A stretch of 32,018 nucleotides of DNA from a virus. The notes below the pieces were generated by a model. The model had not been told where the DNA came from and searched no databases. It saw only the letters and a list, made by a program, of their open reading frames with translations. The stretch lies in IMG/VR virus record IMGVR_UViG_3300006919_000232, positions 1-32,018 of that record. The stretch is one strand, 5' to 3'. This document shows, one piece after another, positions 5,303 through 22,327 of the stretch. Numbering within the stretch: position 1 is the first letter of the stretch; each line of letters starts with the position of its first letter. The translations under genes and the position numbers were made by a program.

Positions 5303-5316
5303 GTTAATTAAATTAG

Positions 5317-5433
5317 TGTGAGTGAGGGGAATCGAACCCCTCTACTAAACCAAATAAAAGCAGTCGGTCATATGATAATAAATCATGCAAAGGACACAAC
5401 CCCTTTACAGGAAGACCGAATCCAGACACTCAC
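5317..5433 (-). ncRNA. tRNA-like RNA: full acceptor and T arm, no normal anticodon arm
   Basis: On the minus strand a 7-bp acceptor stem (GTGAGTG at 5433-5427 with CACTCAC at 5324-5318) closes onto a perfect T arm (AGGGG, loop TTCGATT, CCCCT; 5341-5325), with A5317 as discriminator and no encoded CCA. The interior is 76 nt, too long for a tRNA and without a convincing anticodon loop with U33. It can instead fold as a TCGGTC/GACCGA stem (5419-5414 with 5369-5364) enclosing two small hairpins, plus a CTGCT/AGTAG hairpin (5363-5342). The 5' segment TCTGGATTCG resembles the D-loop segment of tmRNA. It could be a degenerate tRNA, a tmRNA-like RNA or a processing mimic. Confidence 0.6.
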
Positions 5434-5439
5434 TATGTT

Positions 5440-6048
5440 TTAATGCATAACCAATCCTACTTTATTAGAACGGTTAAACCATTTAGTAGCCATGACGTCT
5501 GACTCCATAGCTGAGGTATACCCTGCGCTAACTAAGGACTCCATGTCATCAAAAATTTTACAATGCCTATGATTGTTATAATCAATAAGGTCATCACGAG
5601 TACCACCTTCACTGTATATAATATCAAAGTTTTCAGGCATGTTTGTTTTTAAAAATAAAGGAATAGATTTCGTGTAAGAATAAAACTTTATGTAAGGTAA
5701 AGCCTTAGCTATAGCCACCCATTTATCTATGTATTTTTTAGAGTAGTAATCTCCTGAGTCATGAACTCTTAGCATGTCTACATTTTTTTTCTTAAGCTCG
5801 GCTATCATTTTATCTACAAATGAATCGCATTTAGTAGCTAAATATCTATGTTGAAATGCAGGTGATACGTTACTCCAAACATACGCACCTTTTTGAGCAT
5901 AACAAAATTTAGCACAAGCCCCAGCAAAAGGACAGGTTCGTTTCCCTTCTGAATCTTGGAATGCAGGTATACCAAAGTTAAAGACTCGCTGTCCAATAAC
6001 ATTGCTTGTTTTTTTTAGTTTAGTGTTTTGTGTTATTAAATGTGGCAT
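5440..6048 (-). CDS. Gp88-family phage protein
   Basis: A 202-aa protein matching the 'gene product 88' family seen in many phages. It opens with an NTKL-type motif (TQNTKLKK), has a cysteine cluster TCPFAGACAKFCYAQKG (Cys39, Cys45, Cys49), then the RVHDSGDYYSKKYIDKW block and the YSYTKS segment, all in family order. The spacing of cysteines suggests metal or iron-sulfur binding. The biochemical role of the family is unknown. It is the first gene downstream of the 69-bp palindromic repeat at 6060, so it probably heads a transcription unit that runs on through the tRNA-like RNA and the recombination genes. Confidence 0.7.
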   Translation of the reverse strand: MPHLITQNTKLKKTSNVIGQRVFNFGIPAFQDSEGKRTCPFAGACAKFCYAQKGAYVWSNVSPAFQHRYLATKCDSFVDKMIAELKKKNVDMLRVHDSGDYYSKKYIDKWVAIAKALPYIKFYSYTKSIPLFLKTNMPENFDIIYSEGGTRDDLIDYNNHRHCKIFDDMESLVSAGYTSAMESDVMATKWFNRSNKVGLVMH

Positions 6049-6059
6049 CGGTTTCTTAT

Positions 6060-6128
6060 TTAAGAGGTAGTGTATTATATATATAATTCATACTGAATTA
6101 TTATATATATAATACTACTACTCTCTAA
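6060..6128. repeat. Palindromic intergenic element, copy A
   Basis: A 69-bp element identical, base for base, to the one at 11044. It begins TTAAGAGGTAGTG, forms a long AT-rich hairpin (GTATTATATATATAAT arms around a central TTCA/TGAA stem), and ends ACTACTCTCTAA. It fills the gap between the zinc-ribbon gene (stop 6136) and the Gp88-like gene (start 6048). It could be a leader hairpin, promoter/operator or processing site. Confidence 0.85.
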
Positions 6129-6135
6129 TGTTTCT

Positions 6136-6252
6136 TTATTCCATATCTCTCCAGTATCCACCAGCACAATCCTTAGAGCAAAACTGCCCTTCTTGTTCTA
6201 CCTCATATGTGTCGCAGTAATTGCATAGGTGAACTTCTTCTTCATTCTCCAT
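6136..6252 (-). CDS. 38-aa zinc-ribbon-like protein
   Basis: Starts at the ATG at 6252. The protein reads MENEEEVHLCNYCD then, after 11 residues, FCSKDCAGG, giving two cysteine pairs (C-x2-C and C-x3-C) that would bind one zinc as a minimal treble-clef or zinc ribbon. The start overlaps the stop of the next gene upstream (GAATGA arrangement). Function unknown; small zinc ribbons in phages often bind nucleic acid or a host protein. Confidence 0.6.
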   Translation of the reverse strand: MENEEEVHLCNYCDTYEVEQEGQFCSKDCAGGYWRDME

Positions 6253-6418
6253 CTTTATTTTCTTTTAATTTATTAATTTCTATTTGTAAATTCTCAGCCA
6301 TTATACGCCATTGCATAGCCGCTTTGAGTAAGCTAGTCTTGGTGTTGGCTTTGAGGGCTGACTTAACTTGATCTTTTGTCCACCCATCTAATGGGTTAAA
6401 TTCTTTTTCTTTACTCAT
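6242..6418 (-). CDS. Small helical protein, 58 aa
   Basis: The frame opens at ATG 6418 (MSKEKEFNPLDGWTKDQVKSALK) and ends in a charged helix (AENLQIEINKLKENKDGE). Its start overlaps the stop of the upstream 57-aa gene, and its stop overlaps the zinc-ribbon start, so three tiny genes form a coupled string. No family recognised. Confidence 0.55.
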   Translation of the reverse strand: MSKEKEFNPLDGWTKDQVKSALKANTKTSLLKAAMQWRIMAENLQIEINKLKENKDGE

Positions 6419-6584
6419 TTATTTTGTTTTGTATTTCTCTCCATACTTCAGGGTAATCGTCTATCAGTATGCGCTTGAGTTGCTGTAACTCACTCCACAT
6501 ATCCTTGATTACCTTAGCTTGGTTCTTAATTGTTTTAGCTCTGTCTATTCGTTCTCTGTTTTTAGCTCGTTCTTGCATTCCCAT
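6411..6584 (-). CDS. Small charged helical protein, 57 aa
   Basis: From ATG 6584 the product (MGMQERAKNRERIDRAKTI...) is almost entirely helical and basic at the N-terminus, with a Trp-containing helix (VIKDMWSELQQLKRILID). It overlaps the downstream 58-aa gene by 8 bp. No family recognised; a DNA- or protein-binding helix is possible. Confidence 0.55.
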   Translation of the reverse strand: MGMQERAKNRERIDRAKTIKNQAKVIKDMWSELQQLKRILIDDYPEVWREIQNKINE

Positions 6585-6610
6585 TTGGTTATACTATTAG
6601 GTGAGTTGAT

Positions 6611-6895
6611 TCACTTATTACTCTTGTTGTGTATTTTTATTAAATGTACTGCTACGTTATATAAGTCCTCGATTGAACGCCATCTCTTCTGGTTGTTCTT
6701 CCTTAGGGAACCATCAATCAATTCATGCGGATCGAGTCCACCATTTTCTATCTTCTCTACTACAGGCATCAACCAATCCCATGAGGTGTGGAACATGAGT
6801 TCACCAACCTTATAATGACATCCGTTGTAATCATATAAGTTAAACCCCTCAGAGCCTTCTTGCATAAATTCTGCTATTAGTTTGTTATTTTTCAT
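6611..6895 (-). CDS. HTSWDWLMPV-family protein, paralogue 1
   Basis: A 94-aa member of a four-gene family in this window. It starts MKNNKLIAEFMQ, carries the core FHTSWDWLMPVVEKIE (35-50), and ends with a VHLIKIHN helix. The layout resembles the 'phage ABA sandwich' fold family (short N-terminal helix, tight strands, YxTSxxxAxxVVE helix), but that link is tentative. The related copies are at 6885, 8562 and 8893. Parts are nearly identical at DNA level, pointing to fairly recent duplication or gene conversion. The function is unknown. Confidence 0.65.
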   Translation of the reverse strand: MKNNKLIAEFMQEGSEGFNLYDYNGCHYKVGELMFHTSWDWLMPVVEKIENGGLDPHELIDGSLRKNNQKRWRSIEDLYNVAVHLIKIHNKSNK

Positions 6896-7352
6896 CGTTA
6901 TGTATTTTAATAAATTCTACTACTGATTGGTGTACACCTTTAAGATTACATACCAATAGATGTCTCTTGATTTCATCTGCTGATGTATCTCTTGCATCTA
7001 ATCTCTCAAAGCAAGACTCAACCACGGGCATCAACCAATCCCATGATGTATCGTAGAAGTACACATACTCTCCTGTACGAAAGAATGTCTTTTTATCGGG
7101 ATCTGCACCCATAAATTCTGCAATCATCTCATTATCTGATATGCACTCATGATCCATCACATCACCCTCGTCATCGAGGATATCGTAGCAACAGTCGGGG
7201 CATGTTTTGTATTCGTTATCGTTCATTAGTTTACATATGTTACGTCTTAATCTACCTACTTTGAGCTCATACATATTTACTCTTGCTGAATAAGCAAGTA
7301 TAGTTTCTTGTAGATGCTTGTTCTTTTCTGTTAGTTTTTCTATTTCAGTCAT
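6885..7352 (-). CDS. HTSWDWLMPV-family protein, paralogue 2, with coiled coil and Cys cluster
   Basis: A 155-aa member with an added N-terminal module: a coiled coil (residues 1-45, MTEIEKLTEKNKHLQETI...) and a TCPDCCYD...DHEC cluster (50-71) that could bind zinc. The family part follows: NEMIAEFMG (74-82), YDTSWDWLMPVVES (99-112), and SVVEFIKIHN near the end. It is the most divergent of the four copies (YDTS in place of HTS). It overlaps the downstream copy by 11 bp. The fusion suggests the core domain is used as an adaptor attached to different partners. Confidence 0.65.
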   Translation of the reverse strand: MTEIEKLTEKNKHLQETILAYSARVNMYELKVGRLRRNICKLMNDNEYKTCPDCCYDILDDEGDVMDHECISDNEMIAEFMGADPDKKTFFRTGEYVYFYDTSWDWLMPVVESCFERLDARDTSADEIKRHLLVCNLKGVHQSVVEFIKIHNDEK

Positions 7353-7358
7353 GTTTTC

Positions 7359-7592
7359 TTATATGGTTTTAATTTCGTTTGTTGTTTCAATCCAGACCTT
7401 AGCCCCACAACTAAGCGGTTTATCAGGTGAGTAGATGAGTCGTGCTGATTCCTTCCCATCCTGACCATAGATTACTACGTTGTGTGCATAGCTATTAGAT
7501 TTGTATGTCTTACAGGTTAACACAGGGTTTCTCTCTGAGTTCTTAGCGTTGGCTTTTATTACGTGTTGGTTAACGTGGATTACTGTTTTCAT
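7359..7592 (-). CDS. Hypothetical beta-rich protein, 77 aa
   Basis: The product (MKTVIHVNQHVIKANAKN...) alternates hydrophobic and polar residues in several short strands (HNVVIYGQDG, SARLIYSPD, GAKVWIETT). No family recognised. It overlaps the upstream 53-aa gene in an ATGA junction. Confidence 0.6.
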   Translation of the reverse strand: MKTVIHVNQHVIKANAKNSERNPVLTCKTYKSNSYAHNVVIYGQDGKESARLIYSPDKPLSCGAKVWIETTNEIKTI

Positions 7593-7750
7593 TGATGCTT
7601 TTTTATTTGATTTAATTGTCTACCTATATCGAGTATGTTCTCACCCTCTGCCATAGATAGATTATAGTGACTTCGCCACGCATCGCATGAAAGAAAGTTG
7701 TTGAACCAATCAAGGTACATAGCTTCTATTTGTGTGTTAGTGTAGTTCAT
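7589..7750 (-). CDS. Small phage protein, 53 aa
   Basis: Starts at ATG 7750. The product (MNYTNTQIEAMYLDWFNNFL, then AWRSHYNLSMAEGENILDIGR) resembles a common small phage protein with a YLDWxNNFLT...HYGLSxxEAxxII pattern, which looks like a helix-turn-helix-like unit. The biochemical role of that family is unknown to me. The gene overlaps both neighbours by 4 bp (ATGA), indicating coupled translation. Confidence 0.6.
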   Translation of the reverse strand: MNYTNTQIEAMYLDWFNNFLSCDAWRSHYNLSMAEGENILDIGRQLNQIKKHQ

Positions 7751-7938
7751 CTTATTTTTTCTCTTATTGTGTCAGCTATTTCTTCGTTAATGAAGTGCAT
7801 TATAGCTTCGTTGTCTTCAAACGTAGCTATGAGTATGCTCTCGGCTTCCTCTTCGGTTAGCTTTACGTCTAGATGTTCAGCATTAAGCATTACATCGTCA
7901 GTACTCCATTTGAGTTCGTTTCCGTTGTAGTATTTCAT
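7747..7938 (-). CDS. Acidic small protein, 63 aa
   Basis: Acidic and helical (KLTEEEAESILIATFEDNEAIMHFINEEIADTIREKIR). No family recognised. It overlaps both flanking genes by 4 bp. Confidence 0.55.
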   Translation of the reverse strand: MKYYNGNELKWSTDDVMLNAEHLDVKLTEEEAESILIATFEDNEAIMHFINEEIADTIREKIR

Positions 7939-8186
7939 ATTCGTGGTAAAAAGTGTTCGTCTTTATTAAGCAGTCCCTTTATGTCGTGTACTATGTCATT
8001 AGTAAACAGCAGATTAGTACGCTCTACCTCTACCAATCGTTTACACCAATCCTCATGGTCTATGCATGTCTGTATAACATACCATAAGTTCTCTCTAAAC
8101 CATTCGGGTAGGTTTTCTCTTACCACGCTTATGGCTTGTGTTGTTACGTCTGTGTTAGGTATTCCTTCTAATGTTTCTTGATTCAT
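7935..8186 (-). CDS. Hypothetical protein, 83 aa
   Basis: The product has Trp-rich helices (LPEWFRENLWYVIQTCIDHEDWCKRLVEVE) and no visible signal or membrane segment. No family recognised. It lies 2 bp after the 128-aa gene and overlaps the next by 4 bp. Confidence 0.55.
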   Translation of the reverse strand: MNQETLEGIPNTDVTTQAISVVRENLPEWFRENLWYVIQTCIDHEDWCKRLVEVERTNLLFTNDIVHDIKGLLNKDEHFLPRI

Positions 8187-8188
8187 AA

Positions 8189-8575
8189 TTAAAAATTTAT
8201 TGTTGCGTTTACTGTTTCAGCACACTCCATAAGGAAGTCATCATCCCAGTTTATAATCCCCATCTTGTGTCGCTTTATTTCTTTCTTCGTTAAGTCGGGG
8301 TAGAAGAACTTCTCGATGAACTCAGTGCGTGTCATAGTCGGTGGCTTAGTGTACTCATCCACCATCTTGCATATGTCCTCGTATATCTTTTCCTTGTTAC
8401 CTTTAAGTCCGAAGTACCGCTTGACATCAGTAACTTTCCAGTGTCTATGCGGTTTCATCCCTGCTTTCCATAGTCCTAAGTCACGCTTGGATACGATCAG
8501 GTTGTACATACCTTTGGATGATGCGGATCCGTTGATGCTCATGTCTTGCTTTAAGTCTTGTTCAAATTGTGTCAT
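8189..8575 (-). CDS. Hypothetical protein, 128 aa
   Basis: A mixed basic protein. Residues 20-60 (SKGMYNLIVSKRDLGLWKAGMKPHRHWKVTDVKRYFGLKG) have a strongly patterned, possibly winged-helix-like arrangement, followed by a helical region ending DDDFLMECAETVNATINF. I recognise no named family. The start lies within the end of the HTSWDWLMPV paralogue gene (14-bp overlap). Confidence 0.55.
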   Translation of the reverse strand: MTQFEQDLKQDMSINGSASSKGMYNLIVSKRDLGLWKAGMKPHRHWKVTDVKRYFGLKGNKEKIYEDICKMVDEYTKPPTMTRTEFIEKFFYPDLTKKEIKRHKMGIINWDDDFLMECAETVNATINF

Positions 8576-8888
8576 TGTTATACTCTTTTATAAATTCTAC
8601 TACTGCTTTGTGTGTATCTCCTATATGTCTTGTAGATAGTGCATCTTCAATGCCTTTCACACGAGCATATTGTAAGTGGTCAATGTTCTCAATTACGGGC
8701 ATCAACCAATCCCACGAGGTGTGGAACTTCATATCGTCAGGGTGGAAAACATTATCATCGTTTTCATTATGTGTATTATTTATATTCATGACACTTCCTC
8801 CAACATCATATGCTATTGTTCTGTCATCTACCGCATCTGTCATAGGAGGGTATCCCATAAATTCTGCTATTAGTTTGTTATCGTTCAT
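8562..8888 (-). CDS. HTSWDWLMPV-family protein, paralogue 3
   Basis: A 108-aa member: MNDNKLIAEFMG at the start, FHTSWDWLMPVIENID (55-70), and AVVEFIKEYNN near the C-terminus. The region between motif 1 and the core is an insert of about 40 residues rich in Asp and Asn, unique to this copy, so the family varies mainly in that loop. It lies 4 bp downstream of the fourth copy, so the two probably arose by tandem duplication. Confidence 0.65.
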   Translation of the reverse strand: MNDNKLIAEFMGYPPMTDAVDDRTIAYDVGGSVMNINNTHNENDDNVFHPDDMKFHTSWDWLMPVIENIDHLQYARVKGIEDALSTRHIGDTHKAVVEFIKEYNNDTI

Positions 8889-8892
8889 GATG

Positions 8893-9246
8893 TTATTGGT
8901 TATTATCTACACCATACAACATATCACACGCTTCATCTTCGGTGTCGTGATTGTTGTGTTCTTTAATAAATTCTACTACTGCTTTGTATGTATCCTCTAT
9001 AGATAGCTGAGATAACATCTCATCCTCTATGTGGTGGTACTTAAGTGCGTTATCATCACTGCAATAGTCCACTGATTCTTTGCATTTAAGTACTACGGGC
9101 ATCAACCAATCCCATGAGGTGTGGTAGGGTAGGTTGTCGTTGCTACGAATCCCCATAGGAAATTCATTATTTTCATCGGTGTAGTAACACACACCTGCTT
9201 TGATTGATAACCCCATAAATTCTGCTATTAGTTTATTGTCTTTCAT
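8893..9246 (-). CDS. HTSWDWLMPV-family protein, paralogue 4
   Basis: A 117-aa member with MKDNKLIAEFMG, YHTSWDWLMPVVLKCKE (41-57) and AVVEFIKEHNNH, then an extra acidic tail (DTEDEACDMLYGVDNNQ). The start codon region and the core are almost the same in DNA sequence as in paralogues 1 and 3. It overlaps the upstream gene by 4 bp. Confidence 0.65.
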   Translation of the reverse strand: MKDNKLIAEFMGLSIKAGVCYYTDENNEFPMGIRSNDNLPYHTSWDWLMPVVLKCKESVDYCSDDNALKYHHIEDEMLSQLSIEDTYKAVVEFIKEHNNHDTEDEACDMLYGVDNNQ

Positions 9247-9515
9247 GGTGTGTATGAGTTATAGGTTAATACTTCTTCGTACTTCTCTTGCATAGCTTCG
9301 ATTAACTCCCTACCATTCCTAGTATGGAAGCCGTAGCTATGTGTGTATAGAGAGGGTATCGGTGTGTTGCATAATAGCAACTCCATTAGAGCATAGCTAT
9401 CGTGCCCAACCTCTTCTGCTACCTCGTTGATAGCTGATGCGAGTGCCGCACAGTTGTGTCGTGGTGTACTATCTAGGTCTGTCCTGATGTACATTTCTAC
9501 TTGGTTTTTAGTCAT
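9243..9515 (-). CDS. Hypothetical protein, 90 aa
   Basis: Helical N-terminal part (CAALASAINEVAEEVGHDSYALMELLL), then a Tyr/His-rich segment (YTHSYGFHTRNGRELIEAMQEKYEE). No family recognised. The 5' leader ACCAATAACAACATG is nearly the same as that of paralogue 3 (ACCAATAACATCATG). Confidence 0.55.
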   Translation of the reverse strand: MTKNQVEMYIRTDLDSTPRHNCAALASAINEVAEEVGHDSYALMELLLCNTPIPSLYTHSYGFHTRNGRELIEAMQEKYEEVLTYNSYTP

Positions 9516-9519
9516 GTTG

Positions 9520-9726
9520 TTATTGGTTTTGGTGTTGATGTTGGTTATCCTCAGTCATAGCATCGTATTCATTTGCGTAATACTCGACTTCTTGTTGTGA
9601 TATAAGGAAATCATATACCTCTTCAAGGTATATATCCCATACGTTAAGAACGATTGCCTCGCCCATTATGTCATGCCCTATGTTACGTGCATCTAGTCTA
9701 TCTGATGCTTTCTCTACTTGTGTCAT
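9520..9726 (-). CDS. Acidic small protein with Gln/His tail, 68 aa
   Basis: The product (MTQVEKASDRLDARNIGHDI...) is acidic and ends in a low-complexity DNQHQHQNQ tail. Residues RLDARNI share a short word with paralogue 2 (ERLDARDT), probably by chance. No family recognised. It overlaps the upstream gene by 4 bp. Confidence 0.5.
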   Translation of the reverse strand: MTQVEKASDRLDARNIGHDIMGEAIVLNVWDIYLEEVYDFLISQQEVEYYANEYDAMTEDNQHQHQNQ

Positions 9727-10088
9727 TGTATTTCAATTAGCTTTCCGTTTATCTCTTCGTATTGGAAGTCCTCTTCACACTCCCATTCCGTATAGTATAG
9801 GTAGTCTTGCTGATATGCTATAAGCAGTAAATCTTCATCCGTTTCCTTACTCTCTTCTGCTCTACCTATTGCATCCTCTAACTCATTCCACCTTTCTATG
9901 TCTTGTACGTTATAAGGTATCAGCAAAGTCGGTATAAGTTCATCTATCTCAGATAAAATAGCTTCTCTATCCCTCCTACATTCAGCTAGGGTGTCCTTCT
10001 CATGCTTAGTGTAGAAGATACCATCTCCCCACACCCAACCTTCGTTCATTCCTTCGCCCGTTATCGAGCATTTTCTAGCGTATTTCAT
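9723..10088 (-). CDS. Conserved phage protein with KCSITGEGM/WGDG motif
   Basis: A 121-aa protein beginning MKYARKCSITGEGMNEGWVWGDG, a motif I have seen in small hypothetical proteins of flavobacteria and their phages. The middle is an acidic coiled coil (IDELIPTLL...WNELEDAIGRAEES), and the end is Tyr/Glu rich. The function is unknown. It overlaps both neighbours by 4 bp (ATGA), marking it as part of one coupled operon. Confidence 0.6.
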   Translation of the reverse strand: MKYARKCSITGEGMNEGWVWGDGIFYTKHEKDTLAECRRDREAILSEIDELIPTLLIPYNVQDIERWNELEDAIGRAEESKETDEDLLLIAYQQDYLYYTEWECEEDFQYEEINGKLIEIQ

Positions 10089-10264
10089 GCTCCCATTTTT
10101 AATTCAGATGCGTTCTCTTCATCTATTTCACCTTGCTCAAGCCTAGCTTGTGCAGCATCGCTTCTATCGTAGAAGCATTGCTCTCGGTGTGTAACTCCTG
10201 CAATCCATAGTGATGTTTCGTAGTCGAGTTCGTCTTGCTCGTCCCAATGGTTATCTTCTTCCAT
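10085..10264 (-). CDS. Acidic small protein, 59 aa
   Basis: From ATG 10264 the product (MEEDNHWDEQDELDYETSLW...) is highly acidic with a helical C-terminal half (SDAAQARLEQGEIDEENASEL). Its TGA overlaps the next start. No family recognised; its charge pattern recalls DNA-mimic or adaptor proteins, but this is speculation. Confidence 0.55.
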   Translation of the reverse strand: MEEDNHWDEQDELDYETSLWIAGVTHREQCFYDRSDAAQARLEQGEIDEENASELKMGA

Positions 10265-10300
10265 AATTAATGTATTTTATTGGTTTTTAATTTCGTCTTG

Positions 10301-10540
10301 TTATCCTTTTTCTGATGTAAACCCTAAATCTTTAAACACTTGCTCGCCACTACGCTTTGGTTTACCTAGTGGTATGCGGTAGTCATAAGGGAAGGCTTCT
10401 TCTAACCTACGCTTGTTTTCGTTATCGGCTCTACGCCATGCTTCTACGAGGTAGTGTTGAAATCCTCCACCGTATTTCTGATTCTCTAGCACCCAGTCGA
10501 TATGCTCTATCTCGGTGCAGTCGTGTGTTAATGTATTCAT
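10301..10540 (-). CDS. Hypothetical protein, 79 aa
   Basis: A mixed-charge protein (IEHIDWVLENQKYGGGFQHYLVEAWRRADNENKRRLEEAFP) with a helical middle and a short basic end. No family recognised. It overlaps the upstream 64-aa gene by 4 bp; downstream a 36-bp AT-rich gap separates it from the 59-aa gene. Confidence 0.55.
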   Translation of the reverse strand: MNTLTHDCTEIEHIDWVLENQKYGGGFQHYLVEAWRRADNENKRRLEEAFPYDYRIPLGKPKRSGEQVFKDLGFTSEKG

Positions 10541-10731
10541 TTTAATTCGTCTTGTACGTTTTCTAGTGCTATTTTGTATCCGTATTGCACAGCCATTTGC
10601 ATTAGCAATAAGTCCATAGAACCATTATTTGCAGTTGCAAACGATTCTAAATACTCTCTGTCCTGAGGTGTAGCTACGATGCCTTTATCTAGCTTACGCA
10701 TCTCCTCCTTAATGTAGTCTTGTATATTCAT
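10537..10731 (-). CDS. Small helical protein, 64 aa
   Basis: The product (MNIQDYIKEEMRKLDKGIVATPQDREYLESFA...) looks fully helical, with a hydrophobic second half (MDLLLMQMAVQYGYKIALENV). No family recognised. It lies 2 bp downstream of the coiled-coil gene. Confidence 0.55.
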   Translation of the reverse strand: MNIQDYIKEEMRKLDKGIVATPQDREYLESFATANNGSMDLLLMQMAVQYGYKIALENVQDELK

Positions 10732-10733
10732 GC

Positions 10734-11027
10734 TTATTTAATAATGGTTTTTAAATTTTTGATTACGTTCATGATGTGGTCGCTTACATCTATATCACTA
10801 GCTACACACTCTTCGTAGTGTTCTTCTTCGTGAGGTTCGATGTATTCTACTAATCTCTCTGAAAGCACCTTGAACTCATCAAACTGCATACGTATTTTCT
10901 CGTTTTCTTCACGCAAGTCCACAACTATGTTTCCTGCTTTCCACTTAAGTTGCTCGTTTTTATCACGCAGTTCTGTTATCAGTCTGCCTTGCGTTTCGAT
11001 AGTTTTGAATAATTCGTTGTTTGACAT
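10734..11027 (-). CDS. Coiled-coil protein, 97 aa
   Basis: A long N-terminal coiled coil (residues 1-60, LFKTIETQGRLITELRDKNEQL...) with an acidic middle (YIEPHEEEHYEECVASDIDVSD). No family recognised. It is the first gene downstream of the palindromic element at 11044, with the leader AATTAAAACCAAATCGAA before ATG and no Shine-Dalgarno sequence. Confidence 0.6.
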   Translation of the reverse strand: MSNNELFKTIETQGRLITELRDKNEQLKWKAGNIVVDLREENEKIRMQFDEFKVLSERLVEYIEPHEEEHYEECVASDIDVSDHIMNVIKNLKTIIK

Positions 11028-11043
11028 TTCGATTTGGTTTTAA

Positions 11044-11112
11044 TTAAGAGGTAGTGTATTATATATATAATTCATACTGAATTATTATATATATAATACT
11101 ACTACTCTCTAA
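11044..11112. repeat. Palindromic intergenic element, copy B
   Basis: Identical over 69 bp to the element at 6060. It sits 14 bp after the stop of the 11127-11489 gene and 17 bp before the start of the coiled-coil gene. Identity across the loop and both flanks shows that the whole element, and not only the hairpin, is conserved. Confidence 0.85.
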
Positions 11113-11126
11113 GGGTTTGACGTTTT

Positions 11127-11489
11127 TTAGAGTTCGGCGTGTATGCTACAGCCAAAATCAGGATTTTCTTCTAAGTATTCGAGTATCTGCCTACCTAATC
11201 GTAGGTCTGCATACTCGGATAAACCTTCTTTAGTAACCCCGTACTTCTTCTTAGTTTCATCATTATAGCCATCGTTTTCATCGCACATCTTATCTATGCG
11301 CTTGATTTGGTCAGCGTGTTCGGTTTCAATTTGCTTGACTTCCTCACGCACCTCATCAATTTGGCTAGAGTCTATGTAGTAATCTATATAGTTTTGATTT
11401 TCTATTGCACCAAATCTTTCAGGTGCGTTACTGCCTTGTACTGCGAACATGAACTTACCTTCGATGTCGCCTGAATAATATCTACCCAT
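11127..11489 (-). CDS. Conserved hypothetical protein, 120 aa
   Basis: It begins MGRYYSGDIEGKFMFAVQGSNAPERFG, a motif I associate with small conserved proteins of phages and Bacteroidota. A helical, strongly charged middle (IDEVREEVKQIETEHADQIKRIDKM) follows, and it ends GCSIHAEL. The function is unknown. It is the last gene before the palindrome at 11044 and lies 13 bp after the 208-aa gene. Confidence 0.6.
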   Translation of the reverse strand: MGRYYSGDIEGKFMFAVQGSNAPERFGAIENQNYIDYYIDSSQIDEVREEVKQIETEHADQIKRIDKMCDENDGYNDETKKKYGVTKEGLSEYADLRLGRQILEYLEENPDFGCSIHAEL

Positions 11490-11502
11490 GTTTTCTATTT
11501 AT

Positions 11503-12129
11503 TTATTTTGTTTCGTTGTGGTATAATTCTAATTCCTCCTCAATTTCACTGCTATCCATATACTCTCGTAAGTATGGGTGTATCAGCCAATCATCTTCGG
11601 TTTTGAATAGCTTCGCATCGGTGTAGCCACCTCTAGCATCACAACCTCCGTGTATCTGTAAGAGCAGGTATGTATCCCCGTCAGCATCTTCCAGCCATGC
11701 ACCTTGTAAGATTTGGGATAGGTCGCTATCTCCGTTGTATGTATTAAATTCGTATTTCAATTTCATACCTATCAACTCAAGGAAGTCAGCACCCTCTTGT
11801 GATACTCCCCAAGCTAAATCTCCGTCCCAATTATTACAGTCAGTATTCCGTACGTTAAAATTAACGCACAGGTGATCGAGTTCGAGTTCGCTTAGGTAGT
11901 GAAAGATTGACACCGTACGTTCGTACTCGGTGTGAGTTTCTCCGTATCTATCAGTCCATTCAGACTTTTCGATGGCTTGTGGTTGCTCGTTATTAAAATC
12001 CTCGATAGTCTTGGCTTGGTTTCTTGACCAATTCCTACCATAAGCACCGCCTGAATCACATATGTGGCTACCTGTGTTTTCCGTAAGCATAGCATACACT
12101 AGCTTCTGTGTGTCTGTAAATTGTTTCAT
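11503..12129 (-). CDS. Conserved phage hypothetical protein, 208 aa
   Basis: It carries TENTGSHICDSGGAYGRNWSRNQ (residues 16-38), a motif found in many phage proteins of unknown function, then long acidic stretches and a Gly/Asp-rich segment (QIHGGCDARGGYTDAKLF). It is soluble, with no signal peptide. It is probably an early host-takeover protein, judged only by its place in the leftward arm. The start overlaps the stop of the 47-aa gene in an ATGA junction. Confidence 0.6.
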   Translation of the reverse strand: MKQFTDTQKLVYAMLTENTGSHICDSGGAYGRNWSRNQAKTIEDFNNEQPQAIEKSEWTDRYGETHTEYERTVSIFHYLSELELDHLCVNFNVRNTDCNNWDGDLAWGVSQEGADFLELIGMKLKYEFNTYNGDSDLSQILQGAWLEDADGDTYLLLQIHGGCDARGGYTDAKLFKTEDDWLIHPYLREYMDSSEIEEELELYHNETK

Positions 12130-12269
12130 TTGATTTGGATTTTTTCGATTGCTACATCATCGTATCCACGCTCAGTGAAATGACTTGCTAATTTCTCAGC
12201 ATTTTCAAGGGTTTGGTATTCGTCATTGACTTCCACACCACCTACCCATACGCTATATATTCTATTCAT
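12126..12269 (-). CDS. Small conserved protein, 47 aa
   Basis: From ATG 12269 the product (MNRIYSVWVGGVEVNDEYQT, then a helix, then GYDDVAIEKI) matches a small family with a YSVWVGGxEV...GYDDVxIE pattern seen in phages and bacteria; it looks like a tiny alpha/beta domain. The function is unknown. Its start overlaps the stop of the 60-aa gene and its stop overlaps the start of the 208-aa gene, so all three are coupled. Confidence 0.65.
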   Translation of the reverse strand: MNRIYSVWVGGVEVNDEYQTLENAEKLASHFTERGYDDVAIEKIQIK

Positions 12270-12448
12270 TTTGATTTGATTTCTAAGGTTTCTAACTGAA
12301 GTTCTAACCTATCTAAACGCCCTTCGGCATTACGTATGATGGCTTGTTGCTTCTTGATTTCTTCTTTTGTTCGCATAACTACTGTCGATTGAAATGTTTT
12401 CCAATCACGAAAGTCTGCTTCCGCTTGGGTTAATACTGTGTTTTCCAT
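12266..12448 (-). CDS. Short coiled-coil protein, 60 aa
   Basis: Almost entirely a charged coiled coil (RTKEEIKKQQAIIRNAEGRL...). It is the first gene after the palindrome at 12525, with a leader rich in CAAAACCC-type sequence and no Shine-Dalgarno. Function unknown; it could be an oligomerising adaptor. Confidence 0.55.
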   Translation of the reverse strand: MENTVLTQAEADFRDWKTFQSTVVMRTKEEIKKQQAIIRNAEGRLDRLELQLETLEIKSK

Positions 12449-12524
12449 GTGAATTGGGTTTTGGTTTGCGCTAATGTATAAACTATTATTTCTATATCCT
12501 AATTTGGTTCCGACTTTCTCGGTA

Positions 12525-12587
12525 TTAAGTAGTATATGTATTATATATCTCTCAATTACATTGAGATATATAATACTATACTTCTAA
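12525..12587. repeat. Palindromic intergenic element, copy C
   Basis: Same architecture as copies A, B and D: TTAAGTAGTATAT, a long hairpin with arms GTATTATATATCTC and GAGATATATAATAC, and the flank ACTTCTAAAGG. The left arm carries an extra TC, exactly as in copy D. The stop codon and last residues of the 12576-12944 gene lie inside the right flank. Confidence 0.75.
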
Positions 12588-12944
12588 AGGTTCAGCCCTC
12601 AACCTCTCCTCCTTACTACGTAGGTACGCCATCTCTGCCGTTTCCCCATCTCTAATTTCTAAAGAAATCGCACACCTCCGCGCTTTGTAGCTCGGTTCGA
12701 CTTCACTCTTCAGATACGTAGTACATATGTTGGTACGTGCTTGTCTATGTTCCATTCTTTGGTTGCTATTCAACCCTAGCCTAACCTTACGTGCAAGGTT
12801 CCTACCGCTGAAATCTTCTACCTCCTCTAAAGAGGAGATGTGAGCAGTCATCTCTTTGATTAAGCGCATAGCTATACGCTTGTTTTTTGTAGTCGGTTGC
12901 TGTTTAGCTAGTCGTACAGCTGAACGTATGTCTGTGAATTTCAT
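12576..12944 (-). CDS. Basic protein, 122 aa, related to the 88-aa protein upstream
   Basis: I place the start at ATG 12944 (MKFTDIRSAVRLAKQQ), which overlaps the stop of the 27-aa membrane peptide. The frame is open to 13007, but that part would translate the peptide gene out of frame. Residues 6-40 (IRSAVRLAKQQPTTKNKRIAMRLIKEMTAHISSLE) align without gaps with residues 14-48 of the 13098 gene (TKSAVNKAMYNCTKAKKATALKFLKELTAEVEALK), so the two share a helical module. The rest is Arg/Glu rich. Probably nucleic-acid binding. Confidence 0.6.
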   Translation of the reverse strand: MKFTDIRSAVRLAKQQPTTKNKRIAMRLIKEMTAHISSLEEVEDFSGRNLARKVRLGLNSNQRMEHRQARTNICTTYLKSEVEPSYKARRCAISLEIRDGETAEMAYLRSKEERLRAEPLEV

Positions 12945-13024
12945 CTGTTTGGGTATGAGTGTGCTGTGAATAGAATAGAGACTAAGATGATGACAATAAA
13001 GCACCAAGCTATGTATGTAGCCAT
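12941..13024 (-). CDS. 27-aa single-span membrane peptide
   Basis: From ATG 13024 the product is MATYIAWCFIVIILVSILF plus the tail TAHSYPNR: a typical single membrane span. The TGA overlaps the ATG of the next gene (AGATGAAA), supporting real, coupled translation. It is the second tiny membrane peptide in this arm (see 5228-5302). Function unknown. Confidence 0.5.
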   Translation of the reverse strand: MATYIAWCFIVIILVSILFTAHSYPNR

Positions 13025-13048
13025 ATGAATTGAATTGATTTGTTACTG

Positions 13049-13068
13049 ACTACCCCTAAGGGGGTAGT
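13049..13068. terminator. GC-rich hairpin after the 88-aa gene
   Basis: ACTACCCC and GGGGTAGT form a perfect 8-bp stem with a 4-nt loop (TAAG). It lies 30 bp past the stop of the 13098-13364 gene. On the minus strand no U-tract follows the stem, so it may be a weak terminator or a 3'-end protecting hairpin that separates the first early gene from the rest. Confidence 0.5.
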
Positions 13069-13097
13069 TTCGTCCATTCAGGACTCATCAGAGTAAC

Positions 13098-13364
13098 TTA
13101 CTTACTTAGCGTGGCTAAGTGTTCAAGCAGTTGTGCTTTGGTCATCTTCGACAACCCCTTAACAGGGATAGCTTTCGACTTGGCTTTGGAAGTCTTCGAC
13201 TTCTTCTCTTTAGGCACAACCACCTTCAAGGCTTCCACTTCAGCAGTCAGTTCCTTTAGGAACTTCAAGGCAGTGGCCTTCTTCGCTTTTGTGCAGTTAT
13301 ACATAGCTTTGTTTACTGCAGACTTTGTCTCTGCAAGGACGGATTTTGATGTAGATTTTGACAT
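13098..13364 (-). CDS. Lys/Ala-rich histone-like protein, 88 aa
   Basis: First gene of the leftward arm. The N-terminal helical module (14-48) is shared with the 12576 gene. It is followed by a basic linker (PKEKKSKTSKAKSKAIPVK) like histone H1 tails, then GLSKMTKAQLLEHLATLSK, which resembles a SAP/LEM-type helix-extension-helix DNA-binding motif. It is likely to bind DNA, perhaps as an early nucleoid-associated or repressor-like protein. Its promoter presumably lies in the gene-free zone to the right, with palindrome copy D 36 bp upstream of the start. Confidence 0.6.
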   Translation of the reverse strand: MSKSTSKSVLAETKSAVNKAMYNCTKAKKATALKFLKELTAEVEALKVVVPKEKKSKTSKAKSKAIPVKGLSKMTKAQLLEHLATLSK

Positions 13365-13400
13365 CTGAAAAATGGTTTTGATGAGAGGGGGTTTGCATAT

Positions 13401-13470
13401 TTAAGTTGTTGTATGTTTTAAATATATCTCTCAGTAAGAACTGAGATATATTTAAAACTACAACTACTAA
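13401..13470. repeat. Palindromic intergenic element, copy D
   Basis: TTAAGTTGTTGTATG, then a hairpin with arms GTTTTAAATATATCTC and GAGATATATTTAAAAC, then CTACAACTACTAAGGG. It shares flanks and the two-base left-arm bulge with copy C. There is no leftward gene on its right, so it is not needed as a terminator of an upstream gene; it lies in the leader of the first early gene. Confidence 0.75.
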
Positions 13471-14079
13471 GGGTTCGGAATGAGGTCAGTTTGTGGTCAG
13501 GGCAGAGTAGTAGTAACTACTCTATATAGTAGGGTGGAGGTTGTCCCCCAAGCCTATTAGACTAGGTCAGGAAACCGCGAAGTAAACGCCTATACACACA
13601 GGTAAAGTCGTACGTGAAGTGGGTGCAGCTAAATGACTGTCTGACAATGCTGTAACAAAAGCTGAAAAGTATGCAGAAAACCGCAGGCGTAGTAGAAATA
13701 CGTGAAGCAAGGTGCGTTTCGGTAGGCGTGTGCTGGCGTGCGCATGTATATATAATCCCCCAGGCCTATATTTCTCAGAAAAAATTTGCGCTATTTTTTT
13801 CTTCAGACCCAATTTTAGCCGATTTGTGAATTATTATGCGGTTGCGAAATTCTTTACGATCACATTTTATTTTTATAACCCTTGTATTTTCAATACTTTA
13901 CAAATCATCACTTAAAGTAATTATTTACGGTTGATTTTAAGTTTTTTATGGGTTAACTTTGCTCAAGTCTACTAAACGAATAGCTTTTGTAACTGTTTAT
14001 GATGGTTTTAGTGTATTAGTTATTTTGTTTCTGTATGGGTTGATCAAGCCTTAGCTATGTTTGCGTCTATTATGACTTT
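13471..14079. other. Gene-free divergence region with GC-rich repeat block
   Basis: No credible gene is visible in these 609 bp. Three GGTCAG words occur (13484, 13495, 13565), the first two 11 bp apart. GAGTAGT/ACTACTC forms a palindrome at 13505-13522. Direct repeats include TCCCCCA(A/G)GCCTAT (13544, 13756), TACGTGAAG followed by GGTGC (13611, 13699) and AAACCGC (13572, 13678). ACGCCT at 13586 can pair with AGGCGT at 13685 or 13724. Local G+C is about 48% over 13561-13740 by hand count, and then falls sharply to the right of 13770. It is a candidate origin, packaging site, structured RNA, or early control region. Confidence 0.55.
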
Positions 14080-14103
14080 CCCCCTAATATATGGGGGTTT
14101 TTT
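14080..14103 (+). terminator. Rho-independent terminator-like hairpin, rightward
   Basis: CCCCC (14080-14084) and GGGGG (14093-14097) flank an 8-nt loop and are followed by six T. No rightward gene precedes it, so it would end a rightward transcript from the gene-free region, or act as an attenuator just in front of the first late gene. Confidence 0.6.
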
Positions 14104-21597: not shown

Positions 21598-21740
21598 TGA
21601 AAACAATTAAAAGTAAAGGATTTGGAGACACAGTAGCTAAATTTACAAAAACTACTGGTTTAAATAAGTTAGCGCCAGAAGATTGTGGGTGTAATAAAAG
21701 ACAAGAACAATTAAATAAAATATTCCCTTACAAAAAATGA
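21597..21740 (+). CDS. Small KGFGDT/CGCxKR protein, 47 aa
   Basis: From ATG 21597 the product (MKTIKSKGFGDTVAKFTKTTG...CGCNKRQEQLNKIFPYKK) matches a short phage family with KGFGDT...AKFTKxTG and a CGCxKRQxxLNKxFPY ending. The two cysteines might bind metal or form a disulfide. The function is unknown. Both ends overlap neighbours (TAATG and ATGA), so it is a genuine, tightly coupled gene. Confidence 0.65.
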   Translation: MKTIKSKGFGDTVAKFTKTTGLNKLAPEDCGCNKRQEQLNKIFPYKK

Positions 21741-22327
21741 AAACATTAAATCTATTTATTGTTGAGTTAAAAAAAATCATTAAAGATACTATTACTACTG
21801 AAAGTGGTTTTGAGTTATATGTAGATTCTAAATTTGAAGGTGGAGAATTTGAACACAGAATTACTGAAGGTCCTGTAGTGTGTGCACCTATGAAATATAA
21901 TACAGGTGTAAAAACAGGTGATACTATATACTTTCATCATCTTGTTGTAGTTAATAAAGGGCAAGCCTTAACTGGTGTAGACGATCATTATTTAATCCGA
22001 TATGATGATGAACATACAATAAACAATCAAGCAATAGCTTACAAATCTAAAGATACTGGAGAAATAAAACCTTTAGCAGGATGGGCTTTATTAGAGCCTG
22101 TTGATGAGGACTTGGATATTAAGTCTGATGTTATAGAAATTGTTTCTTTAAAAAAACAATTACCCTCTAAAGGAAAAGTATCTTTTAATACTCCTTGGTT
22201 AAAAGAGTTAGGTGTATTTGCAGGTGATATTGTTGGATTTGGAAGGGATAGAGATTATCGTATAAAAATAGATGGTAAAGAATATTATCGCACTCGTGCG
22301 GAAGACTTAATGTATATTTTAAATTAA
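21737..22327 (+). CDS. GroES-like cochaperonin with duplicated Cpn10-type domain
   Basis: A 196-aa protein. The C-terminal 100 residues fit the Cpn10 pattern: LAGWALLEPVDED, a charged stretch, SKGKVSFNT, GVFAGDIVGFGRDRDYRIKIDGKEYYRTRAEDLMYIL, with the GD-V-x-F-x and 'IxxDGKxYYxxRxEDL' ends. The N-terminal half (GPVVCAP...VKTGDTIYFHHLVVV...YLIRYDDEH) has a similar layout, so the domain is probably duplicated. Like T4 gp31 it may team with host GroEL to fold the capsid or other phage proteins. The mobile loop is not obvious. Confidence 0.65.
   Translation: MKTLNLFIVELKKIIKDTITTESGFELYVDSKFEGGEFEHRITEGPVVCAPMKYNTGVKTGDTIYFHHLVVVNKGQALTGVDDHYLIRYDDEHTINNQAIAYKSKDTGEIKPLAGWALLEPVDEDLDIKSDVIEIVSLKKQLPSKGKVSFNTPWLKELGVFAGDIVGFGRDRDYRIKIDGKEYYRTRAEDLMYILN

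Follow-up and report, generated by a model that had tools for sequence, protein, structure and literature searches.

A group of uncultured phages that, judged by sequence, is related to flavobacterial phages carries a hairpin element of ∼65 bases between blocks of presumed early genes, and the hairpin is retained at orthologous places despite unrelated stem sequences. Since the fold is kept while the letters change completely, the elements probably divide the early mRNA into units. A fuller reading, to which about an even chance is assigned, is that they act in cis as boundary hairpins in the leftward early transcript, where they would be processed by RNase III or serve as a shield, that template switching keeps their arms complementary and that they are also recombination junctions. 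As far as the searched libraries show, they form an undescribed family of structured intercistronic elements.

The DNA is an IMG/VR virus record of an uncultured podophage, the whole of which (32,018 bases, 36% GC) is referred to here as the window. Its terminase and portal match phage families, and the nearest named relatives by terminase identity are an uncultured Manatee Spring podophage (49%) and the Flavobacterium elemo phages (42%). Leftward genes, comprising a recombination exonuclease, a GP88-family gene and many small open reading frames, occupy ∼1.7–13.4 kb; rightward genes, terminase and portal among them, occupy 14.1–32 kb. The leftward arm is taken to be the early arm from its content of recombination proteins and many small open reading frames and from its relatives. 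Gene-order maps show that this arm is highly variable among relatives and that the elements fall at the boundaries of its blocks. Four related small leftward genes, all with an HTSWDWLMPV-type motif, represent a paralogous expansion within the variable arm (Table 1). The window also encodes a GroES-like protein (phrog_13932), and a GroEL/GroES pair is annotated in the relative MW202828 (L086:8775–10665). Behind the GP88 gene lies a tRNA-like fold with a 7 bp acceptor (GTGAGTG/CACTCAC), a T-arm-like GGGGTTCGATTCCCC, an enlarged D region and a 12 nt anticodon-like loop, followed by CTAA; it gave no ARAGORN call and no Rfam match at gathering score, and stretches resembling it are present in the relatives U645, U329 and G003. 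In the early arm of G003 a sigma-factor gene (phrog_351; L106:14145–15050) has a degenerate element and a tRNA-like stretch directly behind it.

Table 1. Elements and other features of the window.
Feature	Position	Strand	Description
Element A	6060–6128	−	TTAG-hairpin-CTTAA; covariance-model match 47 bits; 7 nt after preceding stop codon, 11 nt before start of GP88-family gene (5440–6048)
Element B	11044–11112	−	Covariance-model match 47 bits; 14 nt after preceding stop codon, 16 nt before start of gene 10734–11027
Element C	12525–12587	−	Covariance-model match 79 bits (C itself among the model's sequences); flanked by genes 12576–12944 and 12266–12448; overlaps last codons of the former, whose stop falls inside C; 76 nt before next start
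Element D	13401–13470	−	Covariance-model match 60 bits (D itself among the model's sequences); in leader of first early gene, 36 nt before its start
First early gene	13098–13364	−	Small basic helical protein (D-domain); candidate partner of the elements
Second early gene	12576–12944	−	Partial paralogue of the D-domain protein
GGGGACAAC..TATAT stretch and short hairpin	13504–13549	−	Strongly conserved, noncoding, upstream of D
Box GGGGATTATATNTANAT	13744–13760	−	Strongly conserved in noncoding region upstream of D
Host-type rightward promoter	13931–13961	+	TTG-N20-TAACTTTG; conserved
Intrinsic terminator	14080–14103	+	CCCCC-loop-GGGGG-TTTTTT; after the rightward promoter, just before first rightward gene (14122)
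tRNA-like fold	5313–5433	−	Behind GP88 gene
Four related small genes	6611–9246	−	HTSWDWLMPV-type motif
GroES-like protein	21737–22327		phrog_13932

The first-pass annotation of this DNA had noticed four palindromic elements in the early arm, and their coordinates are confirmed. A search of the window for hairpins with perfect arms of at least 9 bp and loops of 3–12 returned four, which are exactly elements A–D, with arms of 14–16; the means in forty dinucleotide shuffles are 1.9 hairpins with arms of at least 9 and 0.025 with arms of at least 12. Elements A and B, described as identical over 69 bp, have a longest common stretch of exactly that length, and on the plus strand C and D do have two extra bases in common, located in the left arm close to the apex. 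All four elements read TTAG..CTTAA on the minus strand, the direction of the early genes, and all precede a leftward start codon by 11–76 nt, in agreement with the 10–80 bp first proposed.

Copies in related genomes, for which a search had been suggested and whose absence would have told against the first-pass annotation, do exist and constitute a genuine conserved family. When relatives were scanned for hairpins, the same design turned up in many contigs; related contigs carry about 30 copies, every one of them in an early arm. In the direction of transcription the layout is a partly conserved CCGAACCC, YTTAG, an outer stem, a bulge, an inner stem that usually opens with a G–C pair, an asymmetric tip, CTTAA, a short leader and the start codon. 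A covariance model built from twelve copies and searched against 1.8 Mb of related phage DNA matched element loci in early arms only, apart from one weak match outside the usual loci (L123:8631–8699, minus strand, 28 bits, E = 0.006); matches on the opposite strand represent these palindromes reversed, and those to the model's own sequences follow from the way it was built. Simpler searches were less selective, a TTAAG..CTAANGG pattern being too loose (many chance matches) and an RNAfold scan for TTAG..CTTA being swamped by weak matches. The C-type pattern matched ten IMG/VR contigs, each from this phage group; a search of 84,980 bacterial and archaeal genomes gave no match. Rfam returned only sub-threshold matches to the elements, for example with microRNA families, and none at gathering score. 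In cultured phages, nothing matched the leader region as DNA or the first early gene as protein.

Each of the 31 copies examined is either intergenic or part of the leader of the first gene. On crude open-reading-frame calls for these copies, the next start codon follows the element by 2–76 nt (median 17) and the preceding stop, where one exists, lies a median of 10 nt before it. An element so placed separates gene blocks, and the short gap behind the stop leaves an intercistronic copy little room for a promoter of its own. The elements were also compared with intrinsic terminators, which consist of a GC-rich hairpin and a T-run, and this assignment was rejected: they are AT-rich and are followed by CTTAA and an A-rich leader, and the classical terminator nearby, with its GC hairpin and T6, indicates that they are unlike the terminators of this phage. 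The earlier view that simple termination does not explain the elements is thus upheld, D having no gene close upstream; its position in a leader fits the leader site expected of a boundary hairpin.

The conservation of structure over sequence is clearest before the first early gene, where a hairpin is present in 14 of 15 genomes and the alignment distinguishes at least four unrelated stem sequences. In the twelve copies that can be aligned, pairing of the inner helix is 100%; eight changes are two-sided and none is one-sided, and the covariation score is higher than those of all 500 shuffles and of all slid versions. Stem differences between copies of at least 90% identity are mainly two-sided and without intermediates (pairwise counts below ∼0.85 identity are alignment-limited and were left out). 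G–U pairs are nearly absent from 23 distinct copies, with one in 583 predicted pairs on the transcript strand and five in 584 on the other, although the copies share ancestry and their pairs are not independent. The corresponding figure is 14% for random windows of these phages and 18/99 for T7 RNase III sites folded in the same way at what we take to be their positions, with one of the six sites not recovered. In a few copies (G009 and G025) the flanks are inverted.

As read from the aligned copies, the two-sided changes, the scarcity of G–U pairs and the inverted flanks match the footprint of template switching described in replication (PMC8794818). Such switching accounts for the complementary arms and is neutral between an RNA and a DNA role of the product. 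That the bulges persist implies that selection either goes beyond the copying of arms or disfavours perfect palindromes, and the TTAG and CTTAA ends show more conservation than a signal of structure alone requires. The same slot, occupied in different phages by hairpins of unrelated sequence, is a natural experiment, and the elements are a compact test case of whether template switching in replication maintains regulatory hairpins.

In the transcript, each element is predicted to form a stem of ∼23–28 bp. This stem usually has a mismatched or bulged base 2–4 bp above its foot, a 1 nt bulge at ∼10 bp and an asymmetric bulge of 2–4 nt near the tip. A double-strand-specific RNase could cut this stem, as RNase III does in T7, in which an early mRNA of ∼7,000 nt is processed co-transcriptionally by the host enzyme at five sites (PMC4858673). 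Alternatively, the element could act as a barrier, shielding the 3′ end above it and leaving the next start region free of pairing. Translation start in Flavobacterium is governed by upstream bases and by low secondary structure, not by a Shine–Dalgarno sequence (PMC6847099), so a self-contained hairpin that ends ∼17 nt before the start codon could additionally insulate the region around it. Template switching would preserve the complementarity of the arms in the DNA, and recombination between near-identical copies would let gene blocks move along with them. Among the roles originally put forward, an RNA boundary (a processing site or stabilizing leader) is the best fit, with a recombination junction as a second property, whereas a promoter or operator is not retained. 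The elements thereby provide a handle on how Bacteroidetes phages organize early mRNA.

The scarcity of G–U pairs is the main reason for keeping a DNA-level role in play, since a stem nearly without them, in contrast to those of the T7 sites, might be selected as DNA. The palindrome would then be extruded in single-stranded or supercoiled DNA and recognized by a protein for recombination, replication or transcription start. This alternative is considered unlikely though credible. It would suit the near-absence of G–U on either strand, the two-sided changes, the persistence of the bulges and of the TTAG/CTTAA ends and the identity that copies within a genome can show; however, template switching explains purely Watson–Crick arms without it, and it does not need the strict stop-to-start placement in a transcribed arm. 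In addition, no tyrosine recombinase (PF00589; all 14 controls positive) and no Y1 transposase (five of 14 control genomes positive) was found in 11 phage records, and the giant virion proteins contain no recognizable RNA polymerase. A virion or T7-type RNA polymerase acting at hairpin promoters found no support in Pfam, PHROGs or PDB-sequence searches of the giant virion proteins, a weakly negative result given that the RNA_pol controls were silent.

Recombination at the elements is a probable second property of the boundary hairpins, which would also mark swapped gene blocks. In G003, two identical copies flank a module that holds the GP88 gene and stands immediately in front of the gene that in the window comes after element B; in the window itself GP88 is found 5 kb further along, following the identical copy A. 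This arrangement would arise if a segment bounded by elements integrated at another element, and could have arisen through other histories; the evidence for module movement between copies consists of this one rearrangement. With neither a tyrosine recombinase nor a Y1 transposase found, the route is probably general recombination of repeats, and the elements suggest how small early genes could be shuffled. Movement of gene modules could instead be the main role, the elements being mobile or shuffling cassettes of a PeSL-like or REP-like kind with a secondary effect in RNA. The identity of A and B, the occurrence of the same sequence at different loci in G003, the displaced module between identical copies and the near-identical copies within U101 would all be expected of such cassettes. 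Element positions are mostly orthologous and not scattered, however, no transposase was found and no element lies outside early-arm boundaries, which makes this reading distinctly unlikely. The clearest empty site, at the position of B in U329, has kept TTAG and TTAA and lost the hairpin; a single copy is therefore dispensable, and the site is a deletion that leaves the flanks and not a pre-insertion site.

The first early gene encodes the D-domain protein, which is small and basic, is predicted to be helical (structure prediction, mean pLDDT 78, pTM 0.43) and belongs to no recognized family. A profile of its N-terminal part matched element-carrying contigs and none of the others searched, a co-occurrence for which shared ancestry and incomplete contigs are confounders. 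The protein could bind the elements. It might even form a phage-specific nucleoprotein system: by recognizing the hairpins at every block boundary, either in RNA or in extruded DNA, it would control transcription, processing or rearrangement of the early arm; this proposal is doubtful and decidedly improbable. A related suggestion is that the same protein binds the elements in RNA, where they would serve for antitermination or regulation in the manner of lambda N and nut. Its gene lies directly behind the first element, its size, charge and helicity would be appropriate and a conserved terminator precedes the rightward genes; this terminator and the host-type promoter before it resemble lambda pR′/tR′, and by analogy suggest antitermination of late genes. 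Against this, the co-occurrence is confounded as described, the stems vary without limit, unlike boxB, and several copies per operon would not be needed, so that such a role appears highly improbable. The conserved box and the conserved stretch upstream of D (Table 1) are possible early promoters with a leader RNA. That the elements themselves are early promoters or operators is hardly credible: they do stand just before the start codons of gene groups, with a partly conserved CCC(T)TTAG flank, but no promoter of the Bacteroidetes housekeeping consensus (TTTG at −33 and TANNTTTG at −7; PMC6847099), which phage-specific promoters fall outside, lies upstream of A, B or C, no sequence is common to all stems, which are fully replaced between relatives, and the flanks are inverted in some genomes.

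Among known systems, integron attC sites resemble the elements in keeping structure while sequence varies and in lying at gene boundaries mostly in one orientation; the assignment is not supported, as the elements have no R or L boxes (by eye) and no accompanying tyrosine recombinase. A REP/HUH assignment is likewise unsupported. REP and BIME sequences, too, are imperfect palindromes; they contain bulges, have a short conserved foot and occur only between genes, but unlike REP/BIME with RAYT the present elements have no Y1 protein in the phages, no C-type counterpart in the bacterial and archaeal genomes searched and orthologous instead of dispersed positions. PeSL cassettes of T4-type phages (Arbiol et al. 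2010; Comeau et al. 2014) reportedly combine a promoter with a stem-loop and are repeated units in variable regions, tied to module shuffling. The elements are similarly repeated stem-loops in a variable region, with a possible link to the shuffling of gene modules, but differ in having no promoter that could be found, no terminator-type hairpin and a different host group.

In the early map of T7 (R0.3 to R1.3), irregular hairpins lie between early genes of a single polycistronic transcript, with one in the leader of the first gene, and each precedes the next start. The elements differ from these RNase III sites in their AT-rich stems, in their near-lack of G–U pairs (a typical though not strictly defining trait of T7 sites), in the identity that copies in one genome can show and in their conserved TTAG/CTTAA ends. 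What they have in common with them is the irregular hairpin and its placement ahead of a start codon, which in all 31 copies is either intergenic or within the leader of the first gene.
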